Source: Verrucomicrobiota bacterium
GTDB lineage: Bacteria > Verrucomicrobiota > Verrucomicrobiia > CAIQCK01
DNA length: 32,353 bases
Reading direction: 5' to 3'
NCBI GenBank assembly: GCA_016219905.1
Contig: JACRKA010000228.1
Location: forward strand, 1 to 32,353
This document shows, in pieces, positions 2,641-14,760 of the stretch; position 1 is the first letter of the stretch, and every line of letters begins with the position of its first letter. The position numbers were made by a program, and so were the translations under genes. The notes under the pieces were generated by a model. The model had not been told where the DNA came from. It ran no database searches and was given only the letters and a program-made list of their open reading frames with translations.

Positions 2641-5577
2641 ATGGCCCGGCCATTCACAACAACACGCGGTGTGCGCTTCGTCGTCCGCGGCCCGGACACG
2701 GGCTTGGGCGTGGCGTCGCTGGCAGCCGTCCTTGGAAGCGCGGTTTTTCTCATGGCGGCTCCGGCTGCGGAGATGTCCATCAACCCCTCCGCGCCGAATG
2801 CCGTCGCGTTCCCGCCGCAGCGCGCGAAGTTCGTGCAGTTCGTCGTCCACGCCAGCAGCGCGGGCCAGCCGTGCATTGACGAACTGGAGGTCTTCGAGCC
2901 GGACGGCGCGCGCAACCTCGCGCTGTCGAAGGATGGCGCGAAGGCCAGCGCGTCGTCGTGCCTGGGCGGCCATGCCATCCACCGCATCGAGCATCTCAAC
3001 GACGGCCTTTATGGCAACAGCCACAGTTGGATCGCGGCGACGGGCGGTGAGGAATGGGCGCAGATCGAGTTGCCGCGGCCGGCGCAGGTGGCAAAGGTCG
3101 TCTTCTCCCGCGACCGCGACGGCCAGTATCACGACCGTGTGCCGGTGGAGTTTGAAGTCCGGCTTTCGCTGGACGGCCGGCGGTGGCAGACGGTCCGCCG
3201 CGTGAAGGCGGCCAACCTGGCCGCGCAATCGAAGGCCCGCCAGGCGCCGCCCTACGTCCCGCCCGCGCCGTTGCCGGAGCCGGTGACGCATGACGGGCTG
3301 GTGCGCTACGCGTTCCTGTGCGAGCGGGCGACTTGGCAGCGGATGAACGCCGACGATCATCTCTCGCCGCTGCACATGGACCGGCCCGCGTTGCCGGGCG
3401 GCGGGCCGTATTGGGGGCGCATGGCGCGGTTGAAACCAACCGACCGCGTGCTGGCGCAAATGGAGGAGATGATTGCGCGGCTGGCGGCGAAGGGGTTGGA
3501 TGTTGCCGCGGAGCGAAAAGATCTGGCGTCGTTGCGCAAACGACAGGCAACGGCCGACGACGAGGCGCTCTACCTCGACGCGCGGCTGGCGAAGCGGCGG
3601 TTGATGTTCCGCGATCCCGACCTGGCGGCGCTGCAACAAGTCCTTTTCGCCAAACGTCATCCCTACCTCTCGTCCCACAACTACAGCGACGTGCTCGACT
3701 CGCAGTTCAAGCCCGGCGGCGGCGTGTGCGTGCTGGAGATTCCGCGCCGCGACGGGCGGCTGGAGCCGGCGGACGCGAAGCTGGTGACGCTCTTCGACGG
3801 CAGCGGCGGCATCGCGCGCGATGTGATGGCGGATTTCGAAGCGCGGAAGGTCTACTTCGCGTATCGGCCCGACAAGGCCCGGAGCGGCGAGGAGCAGCCT
3901 TATTGGCACCTGATGGCGATGAACGCCGACGGTAGCGGCCTGCGGCAGCTCACCGACGGGCCGTTCCATGATTACTATCCGTGCCCGCTGCCCGACGGCG
4001 GGCTGGCGTTCATCTCGACGCGTTGCAAGGCGCGGTTCCTGTGCTGGCGTCCGCAAGCGTTTGTGCTGTTCCGCATGGACGGGGAAGGCTCGACGGAGTC
4101 TCGCCCCGCCAACATCCGCCCGCTGTCGTTCGCCAACCTGAGCGAATGGACGCCGACGGTGGCGCGCGACGGGCGCATCCTGTGGACGCGCTCGGAATAC
4201 ATAGACAAGGGCGCCGACTTCGGCCACACGCTCTGGGCGACGCGGCCGGACGGGACGCACCCGGAACTGATCTTCGGCAACAACACGCCGAACTGTTACA
4301 TCAACGGCCGCGAGGTGCCCGGCACGCGCGAGATTCTCTGCACGATCTTCTCCCACGGCGGCGACCACAACGGGCCGTTGGGCTTGATTGACCTCGCGAA
4401 GGCGAACGGCCCGTCCGACTCGAACGCCGTCACGAACATCACGCCCGACACGACGCCGCGCTACAACATGAACTGGCCGCGGCAGGAGTGCTGGCGCGAC
4501 CCGGTGCCGGTGACGCGCGATTATTTCCTGGCGAGCCACGCGCCGGCGGACCGGTTCGGCCTCTACGTCGCGGACCGCTACGGCAACCGCGAGCTGCTCT
4601 ACCTCGACCCGTCCATCGGCAGCATGTGCCCGTCGCCGTTGCGGCCGGAGCCGATGCCGCCGGCGCTTGGCCCGAACGTCCCGGCGCTGGCCGGTTCACA
4701 ACTCGGCCAGTTCACCGTGGCCGATGTGTATCAGGGGCTGGAGCCGGCCGTGCCGCGCGGCAAGGTGAAATACATCCGCGTCTGCCAGGAGGTGCGCGCA
4801 AACCTGGAGCAGTTGGCCAGCGGCGAATTCCGGCGCGACCACGGGCCGGTGTTCCAGGATTTCTACGCGACGCCCGTCCACAAGGTGAACGGCCCGAACG
4901 GCTGGCCCACCTACGTCGCGAAGGCGGCGCTCGGCATCGCCCCCGTCGAAGCCGACGGCTCGGCCAGCTTCTTCGCGCCGGCGGGCAAGGTGCTTTACTT
5001 CGAGGTGCTCGACGAAAACCTGAACGAGTTGCAGCGGATGCGGAGCGTGGTGCAGTTGCAGCCGGGCGAACAGCGCAGTTGCGTCGGCTGCCACGAACAC
5101 CGCCAAACCGCCGCGCCGGTAAAGCCGACGCTGGCCGCGCGCCGGCCGCCCAGCAAGCTCCAGCCGCCGCCGTGGGGCACGCAGGCGTTTGCTTACGAGC
5201 GCGTCGTGCAACCGGTGTGGGACGCGAAGTGCGTGCGCTGCCACGGCGCGGACGACACACACAAGATCAACCTGGCGTCCACCCTCGACGCCGAGCGCGT
5301 GCCGGCGTCCTATCGCACGCTCGTCAGCGGCGGCTGGGTCCACTACTTCGACATGACCTACCGGCTGCGCCACCACAAAGCCGGGCCGCTGAGCTTCGGC
5401 ACGTTGCAGAGCAAGTTGTGGAAGCTGTTGGAGGCCGGCCACCACGACGCGAAACTGACGCGCGACGAGATGCACGCGGTGAAGTGCTGGATTGACCTCA
5501 ACTGCCCGCTCTGGCCCGACTACCTCCCGCGCGACCAGCGGCCGCAGGCGTTGCCGCAAGTCACCCAGGCCCACTGA
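2641..5577 (+). CDS. HzsA-related secreted protein: discoidin-like, beta-propeller and cytochrome c regions
   Basis: 978 aa. The N-terminus has a hydrophobic stretch (about residues 20-43, ending AAPAAE) that fits a signal peptide. Residues about 60-195 look like an F5/8 type C (discoidin) domain (KFVQFVVHAS, IDELEVFEPDG, WAQIELPRPAQVAKVVFSRD). Residues about 370-700 contain TolB/propeller-like blades (MNADGSGLRQLTDGPFHDYY, PDGGLAFISTRC, ARDGRILWTRSEY), the region shared with the middle domain of hydrazine synthase alpha. Two heme c motifs follow, CVGCH at 814-818 and CVRCH at 864-868, so covalent heme in the periplasm is likely. In PVC genomes such proteins are labelled HzsA-related. Nothing else here suggests anammox. 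The sulfatase starts 54 bases downstream on the same strand, so co-transcription is likely. The start at 2641 lacks a clear ribosome site. Confidence 0.85.
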   Translation: MARPFTTTRGVRFVVRGPDTGLGVASLAAVLGSAVFLMAAPAAEMSINPSAPNAVAFPPQRAKFVQFVVHASSAGQPCIDELEVFEPDGARNLALSKDGAKASASSCLGGHAIHRIEHLNDGLYGNSHSWIAATGGEEWAQIELPRPAQVAKVVFSRDRDGQYHDRVPVEFEVRLSLDGRRWQTVRRVKAANLAAQSKARQAPPYVPPAPLPEPVTHDGLVRYAFLCERATWQRMNADDHLSPLHMDRPALPGGGPYWGRMARLKPTDRVLAQMEEMIARLAAKGLDVAAERKDLASLRKRQATADDEALYLDARLAKRRLMFRDPDLAALQQVLFAKRHPYLSSHNYSDVLDSQFKPGGGVCVLEIPRRDGRLEPADAKLVTLFDGSGGIARDVMADFEARKVYFAYRPDKARSGEEQPYWHLMAMNADGSGLRQLTDGPFHDYYPCPLPDGGLAFISTRCKARFLCWRPQAFVLFRMDGEGSTESRPANIRPLSFANLSEWTPTVARDGRILWTRSEYIDKGADFGHTLWATRPDGTHPELIFGNNTPNCYINGREVPGTREILCTIFSHGGDHNGPLGLIDLAKANGPSDSNAVTNITPDTTPRYNMNWPRQECWRDPVPVTRDYFLASHAPADRFGLYVADRYGNRELLYLDPSIGSMCPSPLRPEPMPPALGPNVPALAGSQLGQFTVADVYQGLEPAVPRGKVKYIRVCQEVRANLEQLASGEFRRDHGPVFQDFYATPVHKVNGPNGWPTYVAKAALGIAPVEADGSASFFAPAGKVLYFEVLDENLNELQRMRSVVQLQPGEQRSCVGCHEHRQTAAPVKPTLAARRPPSKLQPPPWGTQAFAYERVVQPVWDAKCVRCHGADDTHKINLASTLDAERVPASYRTLVSGGWVHYFDMTYRLRHHKAGPLSFGTLQSKLWKLLEAGHHDAKLTRDEMHAVKCWIDLNCPLWPDYLPRDQRPQALPQVTQAH

Positions 5578-7037: not shown

Positions 7038-7694
7038 ATGCAACTGCTCGCCGCCACGAGGAACAAACACAAGCTGGCCGAGCTGCGCGCCATCCTCGGC
7101 GCGCCGTGGGAGATCCTCGGGCTTGAGACCGCGCCGGGAATGCCGGAGGTCGTGGAGGACGAAGCGACGTTCGTCGGCAACGCGATCAAGAAGGCCGTGC
7201 GCGCCGCCAGCTTTGTGCAGGGGAAGATGCTGACGATGGCGGACGATTCCGGCCTTGAGGTGCTGGCGCTCGACCTGGCGCCGGGCGTGAGGTCGGCGCG
7301 CTACGCGGGCGAGCCGGGCAACGACCAGCGCAACAACGAGAAGTTGTTGCGCGAGATGGCCGGCGTGGGCGACGCCCAACGTGTGGCGCGGTTCTCGTGC
7401 GTCATCGCCATCGCGGGCGCGTCATTCGCGCTGGCCCAAGCCGCGCGGAAGGCGGACGTGGCGTTCACGCTGCGCGACCCGTTCATCGTGGCCGTGTGCA
7501 GCGGCGTGTGCGCGGGCCGGATCGTGCGCGAGCCGCGCGGGACGAACGGCTTCGGCTACGACCCGCTGTTCGTGCCAGAGAACTACGACCAGACCTACGC
7601 GGAACTGCCCGACACGGAGAAGAACAAGATCAGCCACCGCGCGCGGGCGTTGGAGAAGGTGAAGGAGTTGCTGGCGGCGATGAAGGATGGCTAG
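7038..7694 (+). CDS. rdgB: RdgB/HAM1 family non-canonical purine NTP pyrophosphatase (dITP/XTP)
   Basis: 218 aa. It hydrolyses dITP, ITP and XTP to monophosphates, keeping deaminated purines out of DNA and RNA; cytoplasmic. Diagnostic blocks are all present: ATRNKHKLAEL at the N-terminus (residues 5-15), MADDSGLEV (67-75), the FGYDP motif in GTNGFGYDPLFVP, and the C-terminal ISHRARAL. ATG at 7038 places MQLLAATRN at the family-typical start; an in-frame TTG at 7026 would add only four residues. It follows the sulfatase by 59 bases on the same strand, but a metabolic housekeeping role makes the link incidental. Confidence 0.95.
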   Translation: MQLLAATRNKHKLAELRAILGAPWEILGLETAPGMPEVVEDEATFVGNAIKKAVRAASFVQGKMLTMADDSGLEVLALDLAPGVRSARYAGEPGNDQRNNEKLLREMAGVGDAQRVARFSCVIAIAGASFALAQAARKADVAFTLRDPFIVAVCSGVCAGRIVREPRGTNGFGYDPLFVPENYDQTYAELPDTEKNKISHRARALEKVKELLAAMKDG

Positions 7695-9647: not shown

Positions 9648-11045
9648 TCAGGCCGTCCCGCCTGCCGCGGGCGGAACCACGGGATGCTCGTCGGTGTTGC
9701 TCTGGCCGTATTCCTTGAGCTTGGAGTGGAGCGTGCGCAGGCCGATGGCCAAGGCGGCGGCGGTCTTGGTCTTGTTGCCGCCGTGGAGCTTGAGCGTCTC
9801 CAGGATGGCGACGCGCTCCAGTTCGGCGAGGGTCATGCCGACCTGGAACTGGTCCGCGGCAATGGTGCTCTGGCGGATGTGCAGCGGCAGGTCGTCGGGG
9901 GTGACGGCGTCGCCGCGGGCCAGCACGACGGAGTGCTCGATGGCGTTCTCCAGTTCACGGACGTTGCCGGGCCAGGCGTAGCGGACCAGCAGCCGCATGG
10001 CTTCCTCGGTGACACCGGTGACGCCTTTCTTGTTCTGGTCGGCGAATTTCCGGATGAAGTGCTCGATGAGATACGACCCGTCCTCCTTGCGCTCCCAGAG
10101 GCTGGGCAGGCGGATCTGGATGACGTTGAGCCGGTAGAACAGGTCGCGGCGGAACTCGCCGTGGGCGACGGCTTCTTCGAGGTTCTGGTTGGTGGCGGCG
10201 AGCACACGGATGTCCACGGTCATCGGCTGGGAACTGCCGACGCGCTCGAAGGTGCGCTCCTGGAGCACGCGCAACAGCTTGGCCTGAGCGGCGAGCGGCA
10301 GCGTGTGGATCTCGTCGAGGAGGATGGTGCCGCCGTCGGACTGCTCGAACCGGCCGACGCGCAGCCGGTCGGCGCCGGTGAACGCGCCGCGCTCGTGGCC
10401 GAACAGCTCGCTTTCCATGAGTGTCTGGGGGATGGCGCCGCAGGCGACGGCGACGAAGGGTTTCTCGGCGCGCGGGCTGTTGAAGTGAATGGCGCGGGCG
10501 ACGAGTTCCTTGCCGGTGCCGGTCTCGCCGGTGATGAGGACGGTGGCGCGGGTGGGCGCGACGCGGGCGACCTGGCTGAGGACCTCCTGCATCTGCTTGG
10601 AGGTGCCGACGATGCCCTCGAAGCGGTAGCGGGTGCGGAGTTGCTCGCGCAGTTGCTGGACTTCCTCGGCGAGGATGCGGTTCTGGAGGGCGCGGGCGAT
10701 GTCCATCTTGAGCTGGTCCACGTCGAGCGGCTTGGTGACGTAGCTGTAGGCGTCGCGGCGCATGGCCTCGACCGCGCCCTCGATGCTGCCGTAGGCGGTG
10801 ACGATGATGACCGGCACGCGCGGGTCAATGTCCTTGACGGCCCGCATGATCTCGACGCCGCTGATGTCGGGCAGGCGCAGGTCGCTGATGACGAGGTCTA
10901 TTCTCTCATTCTGGAACTTCTCAAGCGCCTCCTGGCCGTCGCGCGCGGTGGAGACGTGGTAGCCGGCGACGGTGAGGTGTTCGCTGAGGATCTCGCGTTC
11001 GCTCGCGACGTCCTCGACAACCAGCAGGTGATAGGGTCGGCTCAT
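9648..11045 (-). CDS. NtrC-family sigma-54-dependent response regulator
   Basis: 465 aa. Domain order: receiver (residues 1-120; acidic pair E11 and D12, phosphoacceptor D55 in ISDLRLPD, T83 region, K105), sigma-54 AAA+ domain (Walker A GETGTGKE 173-180, GAFTGA at 220-225, Walker B ILLDEI 241-246, [10 protein letters not shown] near 400), and a C-terminal Fis-type helix-turn-helix ([29 protein letters not shown] region). It should open sigma-54 promoters by ATP hydrolysis after phosphorylation by the kinase encoded immediately upstream. The gap to the kinase stop is 8 bases. All key residues, including the full GAFTGA loop, are intact. Target genes are not fixed by sequence, but a sigma-54-like site lies in the intergenic region upstream of the operon. 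Confidence 0.95.
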
Positions 11046-11053
11046 AAGGGGTC

Positions 11054-13180
11054 TCAGAGGGTTTCGCCAAACTCGACGGGCAGCAGCCAGCGGAACGTGG
11101 TGCCGGCGCCGGGCGCGCTCTCGAACTCGACGAGGCCGCCGTGGTTGAGGGTGATGGAATAGACCAGCGCCAGCCCGAGGCCGGTGCCGCTTTGTTTGGT
11201 GGTGAAGTAGGGGTCGAAGACGCGGTCGCGGTGCTCGGGCTTGATGCCGACGCCCGAATCGCTGACGGTGATCTCGACGCCGTCGGCTTCGTCGGGGGCC
11301 TGGGCGGGCACGAACGCGGTGCTGAGCTTGATGACGCGCGGGGCGTCCTTCGGCAGGGCGGCGACGGCCTGGATGGCGTTGATGATGAGGTTCAAGAGCG
11401 CCTGCTGGAGCTGGGCTTTGTCGGCCTTGATGTGCGGCACGCTGGTGCCGGGCTGCTTGACGACCTGGATGTGGTAGCGTGTGAACTCCTCGGCCTCCAC
11501 CAGCAGGGCGTGCTCGACCAGGCCGTTGACGTCCACGTTGCTGAGGCTGGACTCCGGCGGGCGGGCGATCTCCAGGAACCGCCGCACGATGAGGTCCAGC
11601 CGCCGCACTTCTTCGCGGATGGCGCGCACGTAGCGGTCGAATTTCTCGCGGTGCGGCGCGTCGGCCGGCGCGAACTGGGTCTGGACGTGCTGGGCGGTCA
11701 TTTCGATCGCGTTGAGCGGGTTGCGGATCTCGTGGGCGACGCCGTGGGCGAGCTGGCCCATGGCGGAGAGCCGTTCGTTGCGGCGCAGGCGCGCCTCGAG
11801 GCGGCGCTGCTCGCTGATGTCCTCGATGAGGGCGATGGCGCCGGGCCGGCTGCCGGAAAGTTCCAGCCGCGAGGTGGAGACCCGCAACGGCACGGTGGTT
11901 CCGTCGGGTTTGCGGAACGCCAGCTCGTGGTCGGAGTAGAGCCGGCCGTTGTGAAGCGTGTCCAGCAGCACGTAGTTCAGCTCCTTCTCGTCCTCGAACG
12001 CGCGCTGGTAGGGCTGGCCGACGATCCGGTTGCGCCCGCGGCCGGTGATCTCCTCGGCGCGGCTGTTGACGGCAACGATGACGGCCTCGTTGCTGATCGC
12101 CAGCAGGCCGCTGGAGATGGTTTCGAGGATGTTCTGCGTGTCGTGCTCCAATCGCGCCGTCGTGAGGGCTGCGGTCCGGCGGCCATAGAACTGGATCAGC
12201 CCGAGCAGCAGCCCCGTGAGAATCACGCCGACCACAAACGCCGGCGCCAGGTTCGGGAAAGGCCGGCGTGTCGCGGTGACGCGGAACCCGGCGATCAGGA
12301 TGCCGCGCGGCGGCGCGCCCTCCACCAGCCGCTCGCCCGCGGCGTGGAACGGATAACAAATCTCGATGAGGCGTTCACCGCGGGTGGAGGCCAGTTCGCT
12401 GACCTGCGGCTGGCGGCTTTGCGCGAGCACCTTGAACGGTTTGTGGGCGCGCTTGAGCCGTCCCACCTCGCCCGCATCGCGGGAAATCACATGGCTGATC
12501 AGGTTGTTCGGCTCCAGCAGGGCGATATAGACCGCCGTCGGCGACGAGTCGAGGAACCGTTCGAGGAACTTCGTATAGAGCGAACTCCAGTCGCTGACCA
12601 ACTGGAAATCCTCCGCCGTCTGGACCATGACGATGGATCCCTGCGTCTTCGGCCGCGGCCAGATCATGACGTAGAGCGGCTCGACGCCCTTGCCGTGCGG
12701 CGGGACGCGCTTCACCCACGGCGTGCCGACCGGCTTGGCCAGCCGGGCCTTCACCTCCGGCAGGTCGCGAAACCACTCCGGTTGCGACTGCGCGCCCGAC
12801 CGTCCCACCGTCTGGCCTTTGGCGTCCAACAGGTAGATCGCCTCCAGCCGCAGCGCCTGCTCCGCGAACCGCAACAACGTCGCCATGTCCGCGCCCGCCA
12901 TGAGGTTCCGGTGCAGGCTCGCGGCCGCGGCGGCCAGGAACGCCTGCCCCTGGGCCAGCGCGAAGTCCGCGATCGCCTGCTCTGCCGCAAAGGTGCTGGC
13001 AAACGCCGTCAGCATCTTCTCGTCCGCCTCGACCTGCTCGGCGTGCTCGCGTTGCGCGGGCGACGGCTCGGTCAACGCCAGCACCACCGCGAAGGCGGCC
13101 GTCACGACCGCCACGATCACCATCGCCGCGATGATCAGCGGGAACGACTGGCGGTGATAAGGTTGGAACAACGCGGTCAT
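11054..13180 (-). CDS. PAS-containing membrane sensor histidine kinase
   Basis: 708 aa. An N-terminal membrane segment (about residues 13-36) and a second one (about 310-331) bracket a sensor region of about 270 residues outside the cytoplasm. A PAS domain follows (about 345-455, ISSGLLAISNEAVIVAVNSR), then HisKA with H483 in GVAHEIRNPLNAIEM, and HATPase_c with N601 in LLNLIINAIQ, the G1 box DSGVGI 641-646, and G2 GTGLGL 665-670. This is the architecture of NtrB/AtoS-type kinases that feed NtrC-family regulators, and the partner is encoded 8 bases downstream. The sensed signal is not identifiable. A 9-bp dyad lies 25 bases upstream of the start. Confidence 0.93.
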   Translation of the reverse strand: MTALFQPYHRQSFPLIIAAMVIVAVVTAAFAVVLALTEPSPAQREHAEQVEADEKMLTAFASTFAAEQAIADFALAQGQAFLAAAAASLHRNLMAGADMATLLRFAEQALRLEAIYLLDAKGQTVGRSGAQSQPEWFRDLPEVKARLAKPVGTPWVKRVPPHGKGVEPLYVMIWPRPKTQGSIVMVQTAEDFQLVSDWSSLYTKFLERFLDSSPTAVYIALLEPNNLISHVISRDAGEVGRLKRAHKPFKVLAQSRQPQVSELASTRGERLIEICYPFHAAGERLVEGAPPRGILIAGFRVTATRRPFPNLAPAFVVGVILTGLLLGLIQFYGRRTAALTTARLEHDTQNILETISSGLLAISNEAVIVAVNSRAEEITGRGRNRIVGQPYQRAFEDEKELNYVLLDTLHNGRLYSDHELAFRKPDGTTVPLRVSTSRLELSGSRPGAIALIEDISEQRRLEARLRRNERLSAMGQLAHGVAHEIRNPLNAIEMTAQHVQTQFAPADAPHREKFDRYVRAIREEVRRLDLIVRRFLEIARPPESSLSNVDVNGLVEHALLVEAEEFTRYHIQVVKQPGTSVPHIKADKAQLQQALLNLIINAIQAVAALPKDAPRVIKLSTAFVPAQAPDEADGVEITVSDSGVGIKPEHRDRVFDPYFTTKQSGTGLGLALVYSITLNHGGLVEFESAPGAGTTFRWLLPVEFGETL

Positions 13181-13204
13181 TGGTGGCGGCGTCCTTCAGG
13201 CGGC

Positions 13205-13227
13205 TGACGCGCAAACGATGCGCGTCA
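13205..13227. promoter_or_regulatory. 9-bp dyad (TGACGCGCA-N5-TGCGCGTCA), possible regulator binding site
   Basis: Two perfect complementary 9-base arms flank AACGA. The dyad is 25 bases upstream of the histidine kinase start and about 170 bases upstream of the predicted start of transcription from the sigma-54-like site at 13363-13377. Size, symmetry and distance fit an enhancer site for an NtrC-type regulator. That role is inferred from position; the dyad could instead be a leader hairpin of the kinase mRNA. Confidence 0.5.
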
Positions 13228-13362
13228 TCGGGCAATCCAGCCATGCTGTTTTAGCAACCGTCGGCCCTCTTGTCGTGCGGAATATGCACCGCGCGCCGAT
13301 TGTAGCAACCGCTAATTGTCGCAAGACGGCGTGGCGCAACGGCCAAGCCGCACTCCCCCCGG

Positions 13363-13378
13363 TGGCACTGCCTGTGCT
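13363..13378 (+). promoter_or_regulatory. Sigma-54-like -24/-12 promoter
   Basis: TGGCACTGCCTGTGCT matches the consensus TGGCACG-N4-TTGC at 9 of 11 fixed positions, with the essential GG and GC twelve bases apart. It points toward the structured element at 13424-13506 and the MFS gene at 13630. Transcription would begin near 13389. Chance matches occur in GC-rich DNA, but its place upstream of a sigma-54 activator operon supports it. Confidence 0.4.
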
Positions 13379-13423
13379 TCCCTTTCCCGGCAGTCGGATC
13401 TTTGAGAACCGAATCCAGTCTTA

Positions 13424-13506
13424 GTGGGAGGTGGCTCCTCAGACGGCTGGCCGACTCGGCGGTTCGGCCGTTCCCCTCACTGGTTGAGGGGCCTCCCACA
13501 TTTTTT
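13424..13506 (+). ncRNA. Candidate structured RNA: three-way junction ending in T6
   Basis: GTGGGAGG (13424-13431) pairs with CCTCCCAC (13492-13499), closing two internal hairpins. The first uses GGCCGA (13449-13454) with TCGGCC (13464-13469). The second is a perfect 7-bp stem, CCCCTCA (13473-13479) with TGAGGGG (13485-13491), and a 5-base loop. A run of six T starts one base after the closing stem, as in an intrinsic terminator. It could be a small RNA, a leader with attenuator for the MFS gene, or a palindromic mobile repeat. I know of no named RNA family that matches. Confidence 0.45.
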
Positions 13507-13629
13507 CCAAGACGCGACCAAAGCTGGCGCATGGGATTCGCGATTCAGTCTTTGCGATTCGTGACCCGGAAAACGGGTGTTGACGCACAAGAACGAATCA
13601 CGAATAACGAGTCACGAACAACGACACCC

Positions 13630-14760
13630 ATGCGCCAGCTTTGTGCTTTCTACTTCGTGGTCTGCGCCGCCGCCGGCATCCTGCTGCCGTTCTTCAACCT
13701 GCACCTGAAGCAACTCGGCTTCAGCGACTGGCAGATCGGCATCGTGGCCGCGCTCGCGCCGTTGGGCCGCGTCGTGTTTCCCGGCTTCTGGGGCGCCCTC
13801 GCCGACCGCTCGCGCCGGCGCAACCTGCTGCTGGCGGCCTCCTGCGCGTGCATGGCGCTGGCCTTCGGCGGCGTCCTCACGGCAAAGACCTTCGCGTGGA
13901 TGATCGTCGCGGTCACGACGGTGCAGTTCTTCAGCACCCTCACCGGCCCGCTGGTGGACGCCAGCACGCTGGAGATCGCCCGGCGCGAGGGCTTCGATTA
14001 CGGCCAGGTGCGCGCGTGGGGTTCCATCGGCTTCGTCGTCGCGGCGATGGTCGTCGGCAAACTGCTCGACTCGTTCCCCACCCTCGCCGGCCTCGCTGCT
14101 GCGGCGCTCTGTTATGTGGTGATGGCCGGCATCGCGCTGCGGTTGCCGCCGCTGCCCGTGTCGCCGCCGAAGCCTGAGGGCGAACGCGCGCGCCGGCGCG
14201 ACGTGCTGCGCCAGCCGCTGGTCGCCGCGCTGCTCGCCGCCAGCCTCCTCAACCAACTCGCCCACGGTGTCTATTATAACTTCTTCACCATCCACCTCCG
14301 CGAGGTCGGCTACACGCCGTTCACCATCGCCTTCTTCTGGTCGTTCGCCGTCGCGGCGGAGGTGTGGTTCATCTTCAAGTCGGGCGCGCTGATCCGCCGC
14401 TTCGGCGCGGTGCCGTTGATCGTGATCTCGCTGGTGGCCGGCGCGCTGCGCTGGGGCGCCTACGCGTTGAGCGCGTCGTGGTGGGTGCTCCTGCTGATGC
14501 AGCCGCTGCACGCGCTCACCTTCGGCGCGTTCCAGATGTCGGCGATGCACATCATCCACGACCGTTTCCCGGAAGAACTGCGCGTCAGCGGCCAGAGCTA
14601 CCTCACCATCGCGTCGTGGGGCGCAGGTTCGCTCATCGGCGCGCTGGTGGCGGGCTGGGCCATGCACGCCATCGGCGCATCGGGGTCCTACGCGCTCTGC
14701 GCCGCCGTCGCGCTGGCTGGGGCAGGCTTGGCGCTTGCCGGGCTGCGCGGGCGCCGTTAG
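13630..14760 (+). CDS. MFS transporter (MFS_1-like)
   Basis: 376 aa with about twelve hydrophobic segments, so an inner-membrane secondary transporter. The start at 13630 gives MRQLCAFYFVVCAAAGILLP, an immediate first membrane helix. A longer in-frame extension to 13402 would run through the structured repeat and has no membrane or domain signal, so it is rejected. The loop after helix 2 carries the MFS-type GALADRSRRRN motif (family A-motif, about residues 55-66). Overall it resembles the MFS_1-like group related to nucleoside/H+ and phenylpropionate permeases, but the substrate cannot be called. The next gene starts 12 bases after its stop, implying an operon. Confidence 0.88.
   Translation: MRQLCAFYFVVCAAAGILLPFFNLHLKQLGFSDWQIGIVAALAPLGRVVFPGFWGALADRSRRRNLLLAASCACMALAFGGVLTAKTFAWMIVAVTTVQFFSTLTGPLVDASTLEIARREGFDYGQVRAWGSIGFVVAAMVVGKLLDSFPTLAGLAAAALCYVVMAGIALRLPPLPVSPPKPEGERARRRDVLRQPLVAALLAASLLNQLAHGVYYNFFTIHLREVGYTPFTIAFFWSFAVAAEVWFIFKSGALIRRFGAVPLIVISLVAGALRWGAYALSASWWVLLLMQPLHALTFGAFQMSAMHIIHDRFPEELRVSGQSYLTIASWGAGSLIGALVAGWAMHAIGASGSYALCAAVALAGAGLALAGLRGRR

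Follow-up and report, generated by a model that had tools for sequence, protein, structure and literature searches.

A covarying structured RNA with paralogous copies in one family of Verrucomicrobiia

Our analysis of a 32,353-nucleotide stretch of Verrucomicrobiota DNA (the window) identifies a folded RNA, here termed R, which spans positions 13424-13508 in the gap between a histidine kinase operon and a transporter gene. Once its relatives are compared, R is a real structured RNA, far beyond chance. Genome and database searches indicate an RNA family that had not been catalogued and that occurs in a single family of Verrucomicrobiia. We consider it reasonably probable that R is a structured small-RNA gene of about 80-95 nt, with its own promoter and intrinsic terminator, belonging to a paralogous family confined to these genomes and most likely acting in trans as a regulatory RNA. 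To our knowledge few small RNAs have been described in Verrucomicrobiota, and R, which is well delimited, covaries and has paralogues within one family of genomes, is ready for Northern blot or RNA-seq.

Results

The core of R (13424-13499, forward strand) is closed by the helix P1, whose arms in the window are GTGGGAGG (13424-13431) and CCTCCCAC (13492-13499), and contains two or three inner helices: P2, a possible short hairpin; P3, which is long and capped by a nearly invariant ACUCGG loop; and P4. Taken as a single sequence, R folds only moderately better than its shuffles (z = -2.5); the case for the structure comes from its 15 homologues. The consensus folded from 14 copies (alignment A4) comprises 8 pairs in P1, 3 in P2, 12 in P3 and 7 in P4. 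Two-sided changes that keep the pairing are found at 9 of these 30 pairs (23 cells), and pairing holds in 98% of cells. Covariation scores 0.257, against 0.162 (sd 0.012) in shuffled alignments, none of 500 scoring as high; with the partner slid, the score does not exceed 0.107. All of this covariation sits in P3 and P4; P1 and the 5' segment GUGGGAGGUGANUCCUCAG are almost without variation. The core is 75-78 bases long across the copies and changes in single-base steps. We also considered coding capacity: one mostly open frame runs through R, but 1-base indels shift it in three copies and a stop interrupts it in another. With such indels separating the copies, a conserved reading frame is excluded.

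When 39 related genomes were searched with a 98-base RNA segment, every one of the seven in the window's family, the window's own included, gave a match. These genomes, all of them drafts and several incomplete or fragmented, hold 15 copies of R, with 1-4 per genome and 2-4 in those of the sister genus. A covariance model scores the 15 copies at 86-104 bits, with the next matches in the family genomes at 23 bits or less, and it recovered one copy (G002:C32, 91 bits) that had not been used in building it. Those of the weak matches (13-23 bits) that were opened proved to be REP-like palindromes or chance. With the same model, no copy was found outside the family in samples of the class (286 genomes) and the phylum (289 genomes). 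A pattern scan of about 85,000 GTDB species genomes returned 41 stretches, of which the model confirmed 14; these are known copies, all in six named family genomes, and their records are labelled Verrucomicrobia or Verrucomicrobiia, apart from one 'uncultured bacterium' and one 'Methylacidiphilum sp.'. The other 27 are chance matches and give no sign of a wider spread, and carriage by phages was likewise rejected, as none of the three pattern matches in viral contigs was scored well by the model. R has no match in Rfam 15 at gathering score, at which a tRNA is the only family found in the window. When the region 13150-13700 was searched at E values up to 10, the best chance matches had an E value of about 8, the sole hint for R being ar15 (E 8.2; 12.4 bits, where the gathering score is 40). 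A limited literature search on Verrucomicrobia RNA motifs and Shine-Dalgarno-like small RNAs gave no matching description.

The flanks of R carry candidate signals of a separate transcription unit. A probable -10 region is placed by upstream alignment at 13396-13404 (forward strand), reading GATCTTTGA in the window and GNTATTTGA in most other copies; its TTTGA recurs in every one of the 15 copies, at a distance of 13-20 bases from the GTGGGAGG downstream. In several copies GTGACG or TTGACG precedes this element at a spacing of 16-17 bases, so that, read from the sequences, the upstream elements look like an ordinary vegetative promoter. The upstream sequence is partly common to the copies despite their unrelated flanking genes. 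At the other end, P1 is followed by an A and six T (13500-13506, forward strand; T6 at 13501-13506). Several copies have an imperfect T run and most have a T-rich 3' flank; the combination of a GC-rich P1 with a T-rich stretch looks like an intrinsic terminator. Second hairpins lie behind R at the loci with a downstream alanine dehydrogenase gene (ald), reaching -44.6 and -47 kcal/mol in two of them and accompanied by T runs. At four further loci (group C) a hairpin TTAGCACA...TGTGCTAA lies 3' of R and is mostly followed by T6.

A second conserved element is seen behind R in four genomes of the sister genus, with the form TTAGCACA-...GTTCCTGACGTGAAACTCAGAAC...-TGTGCTAATTTTTT and z of about -1.5 to -2.8 (L012:5805-5893, L018:6418-6508, L020:6222-6312 and L079:1780-1872). 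Its sequence is strongly conserved and its flanking genes differ.

The gene order of the window is an rdgB-like gene (7038-7682, forward strand; 58% identity by tblastn), an unidentified gene, an NtrC-type response regulator and a PAS histidine kinase (11054-13180; Pfam), both on the reverse strand, then R and an MFS_1_like transporter of 376 aa (13630-14760; PF12832, E 3.9e-76) on the forward strand. The congener, G001, keeps the order rdgB, regulator, kinase, R and MFS. In four genomes of the sister genus, rdgB lies directly upstream of R with ald downstream and neither kinase nor regulator present, so that R adjoins the NtrC-type pair in a single genus. At the rdgB locus R persists as its neighbours change, from rdgB-R-ald in the sister genus to rdgB, regulator/kinase and R-MFS in the window's genus. 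Together with the hairpin that the MFS loci share with most of the ald loci (below), this suggests to us a single ancestral locus where R was retained and the genes on either side of it were exchanged. The other copies of R precede genes for a hemerythrin, URO-D, a glycoside-hydrolase-like protein, a DUF7544 protein and unidentified products, with no consistent class of downstream gene. R is therefore independent of its neighbouring genes, the kinase operon and the MFS gene included.

These loci also bear on the possibility that R is a cis-acting leader, a riboswitch or attenuator of a mixed regulon in which P1 and the T run terminate transcription until a GAGG/CCUC hairpin, a ligand or a ribosome disrupts P1 and lets polymerase enter the downstream gene. 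At each of the nine distinct loci the downstream gene shares R's strand, as would be expected of a leader more than of a gene placed at random, and the GAGG/CCUC hairpin, exclusive with P1, can form in all 14 aligned copies. However, that hairpin shows one-sided changes only and hence lacks covariation support, the downstream genes are unrelated and are swapped at syntenic loci, and at the ald and group-C loci a second terminator-like hairpin separates R from the gene. Like riboswitch and attenuator leaders, R is a compact junction with a closing stem and a T run after it, and it lies ahead of genes on its own strand; unlike them, it has no common downstream function, is often followed by the second hairpin and has changed neighbours between genera. 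We think a leader unlikely. The suggestion in the earlier note of an attenuated leader for the MFS gene is accordingly unlikely to describe a general role, since R precedes different genes elsewhere and mostly behind terminator-like hairpins; its other guess, a small RNA, is supported.

At two paralogous loci of one genome, a 141-aa protein (MRTRAGLWIDHRKAVIV..., no Pfam match) is encoded beside R (L012:6721-7143 and L019:5695-6117), on different sides of R at the two.

Behind R a long hairpin (13518-13646, forward strand; arms AAAGCTGGCGCATGGG / CCCATGCGCCAGCTTT) folds at -67.1 kcal/mol with a z of -6.2, and the MFS start codon (13630) falls within its right arm. The G001 counterpart, despite a diverged interior, still pairs, at -77 kcal/mol. 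A transcript reading through R would, by this fold, hide the start codon, and the MFS gene is presumably expressed from within the hairpin loop or only upon opening of the hairpin. The arms AAGCTGGCGCRTG / CAYGCGCCAGCTT follow R at the MFS loci and also at three of the four sister-genus rdgB-ald loci; at the fourth ald locus the hairpin is degenerate, and elsewhere in those genomes it was not found. The interior in the window is a GATTCG/CGAATC-type sequence that diverges in the congener.

The earlier note had seen in the gap a possible sigma-54 control unit, in which the NtrC-type regulator would act from a dyad on a -24/-12 promoter serving the RNA or the MFS gene. The three elements that it named are all present in the window: a 9-bp dyad with perfect arms (TGACGCGCA-AACGA-TGCGCGTCA, 13205-13227, with no strand assigned), a sigma-54-like site (TGGCAC-N5-GTGCT, 13363-13378, forward strand), neither of them counted within R, and the folded sequence with T6 at 13424-13506, which alone survives comparison. 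For the regulator (9648-11048, reverse strand), translation and Pfam show a full NtrC type with receiver, sigma-54 AAA+ and Fis HTH domains and an intact GAFTGA. Moreover, rpoN was found in all seven family genomes, the spacing from dyad to site is plausible, and the TGGCAC...GC spacing beside an NtrC-type regulator is that of known promoters of this class. Against this, six perfect 9-bp dyads with spacers of 3-10 occur in the window where shuffles give 2.7 (maximum 10), so the dyad at 13205-13227 is not exceptional. The exact sigma-54-like match is the only one in the 32 kb window, against 0.15 expected; if one mismatch is tolerated, the window has 3 matches where chance would give 5. When the gap was aligned base by base with that of G001, the only other genome of the window's genus, the dyad arms were found to be scrambled with their pairing lost, and TGGCAC was retained while the -12 element had changed from GTGC to CCGT. 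The dyad and promoter-like site are thus not conserved beside the orthologous kinase of the congener, an outcome that the note itself had named as refuting the control unit; in the congener R, 35 bases past the site, is 80-83% identical to the window copy. No such pair was evident upstream of the other R copies, and the sister genus has R with no kinase or regulator. With the dyad and the -12 element lost in the congener and both features near chance frequency, the control unit is unsupported; we regard it as extremely improbable, and the proposed promoter and enhancer around R are probably chance. A sigma-54 reading that is plausible from one sequence fails once a single relative is compared.

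In the seven genomes, matches to PF04552, the sigma-54 DNA-binding domain, are split in two, roughly 130-195 bases apart and near profile position 58 (for example G000:C303:2006-2674, with matching places in G001-G006), within long open frames of 393-846 aa. The split may reflect an insertion in the RpoN DNA-binding domain that is specific to this lineage.

Discussion

Our structural and comparative data suggest a model for R as a small-RNA gene. Transcription would start from the -10-like element and end at the T run after P1, giving an RNA of 80-95 nt, and the frequent second terminator-like hairpin would allow read-through products of about 170-230 nt. We propose that R acts in trans as a regulatory RNA, with the invariant 5' arm GUGGGAGGUGANUCCUCAG and P1 as the probable contact surface and with P3 and P4 as a scaffold whose sequence may change freely while its pairing is kept. 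Hfq was not detected in any of the seven family genomes, so a trans-acting R would need another chaperone or none.

Multi-copy paralogous small-RNA families are known in other bacteria, among them LhrC in Listeria, Qrr in Vibrio and alpha-r15/AbcR in Rhizobiales. R resembles them in having several similar intergenic genes per genome, with a conserved core and different neighbours, and in its C-rich CCUCCC stretch and terminal T run. It differs in having no sequence homology to them, in that its CCUCCC is locked in P1 and not in a loop, and in the lack of a detected Hfq in the genomes that carry it.

The invariance of the 5' arm also admits a ribosome-directed role. The arm, which contains GGAGGTG at 13427-13433, can pair as GGAGGUGG(C)UCC (13425-13437, forward strand) over 11 bases with the 16S 3' tail, with one bulge, and in all 15 copies GGAGGUGANUCC, with small variations, pairs 11-12 bases with the 16S 3'-end GGAUCACCUCC, some with a one- or two-base bulge. 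The duplexes range from -17.1 to -20.9 kcal/mol over the 15 copies, stronger than in almost every mononucleotide shuffle of the copy concerned, and the 16S tail GGATCACCTCCTTT, which could be located in three relatives, is canonical in all of them. The pairing requires P1 to open. On this hypothesis the arm, GGAGGUGA(N)UCC, would act as a super-Shine-Dalgarno that occupies the anti-Shine-Dalgarno of free 30S subunits once P1 opens, either restraining initiation globally or letting 30S binding to the nascent RNA prevent the P1 terminator from forming, which would couple downstream transcription to ribosome availability. We consider this very improbable, because the local GAGG/CCUC hairpin explains part of the conservation and the match was noticed after the fact. 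Such a contact between the arm and the 16S tail, if it truly takes place, would be an unusual means of regulating translation or of sensing free ribosomes.

A different origin was considered for R, namely that it is no RNA gene and is instead a REP/BIME-like mobile palindrome or the domesticated descendant of one. Palindromes of the form GTGGGAGGGGCCTCAGCG...CGCTGAGGCCCCTCCCAC occur in six of the seven genomes, with 1 to 34 half-sites each, Y1-type (RAYT) transposases are present in these genomes, and R carries the same GTGGGAGG/CCTCCCAC ends, with a local similarity of p 0.001-0.05. The likeness is nevertheless weak and confined to the ends, and the genome G003 has R where neither such repeats nor Y1 transposase matches were found. 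Unlike REP elements, R is low in copy number (1-4) and kept at a syntenic locus, and its interior is asymmetric with inner helices that covary on one strand, the reverse complement scoring at most 18.6 bits. We therefore judge a mobile palindrome improbable and retain the small-RNA gene as our preferred explanation.

The copy number of the palindromes roughly tracks the presence of Y1 transposase genes, neither having been found in G003; half-sites number 23 each in G000 and G001 and 34 in G006. Examples of the form GAATGTGGGAGGGGCCTCAGCGCCCCGAC...GTCGGGGCGCTGAGGCCCCTCCCACATTC (L084:2209-2286 and 4946-5032; L086:2601-2680) lie apparently inside or adjoining coding sequence.
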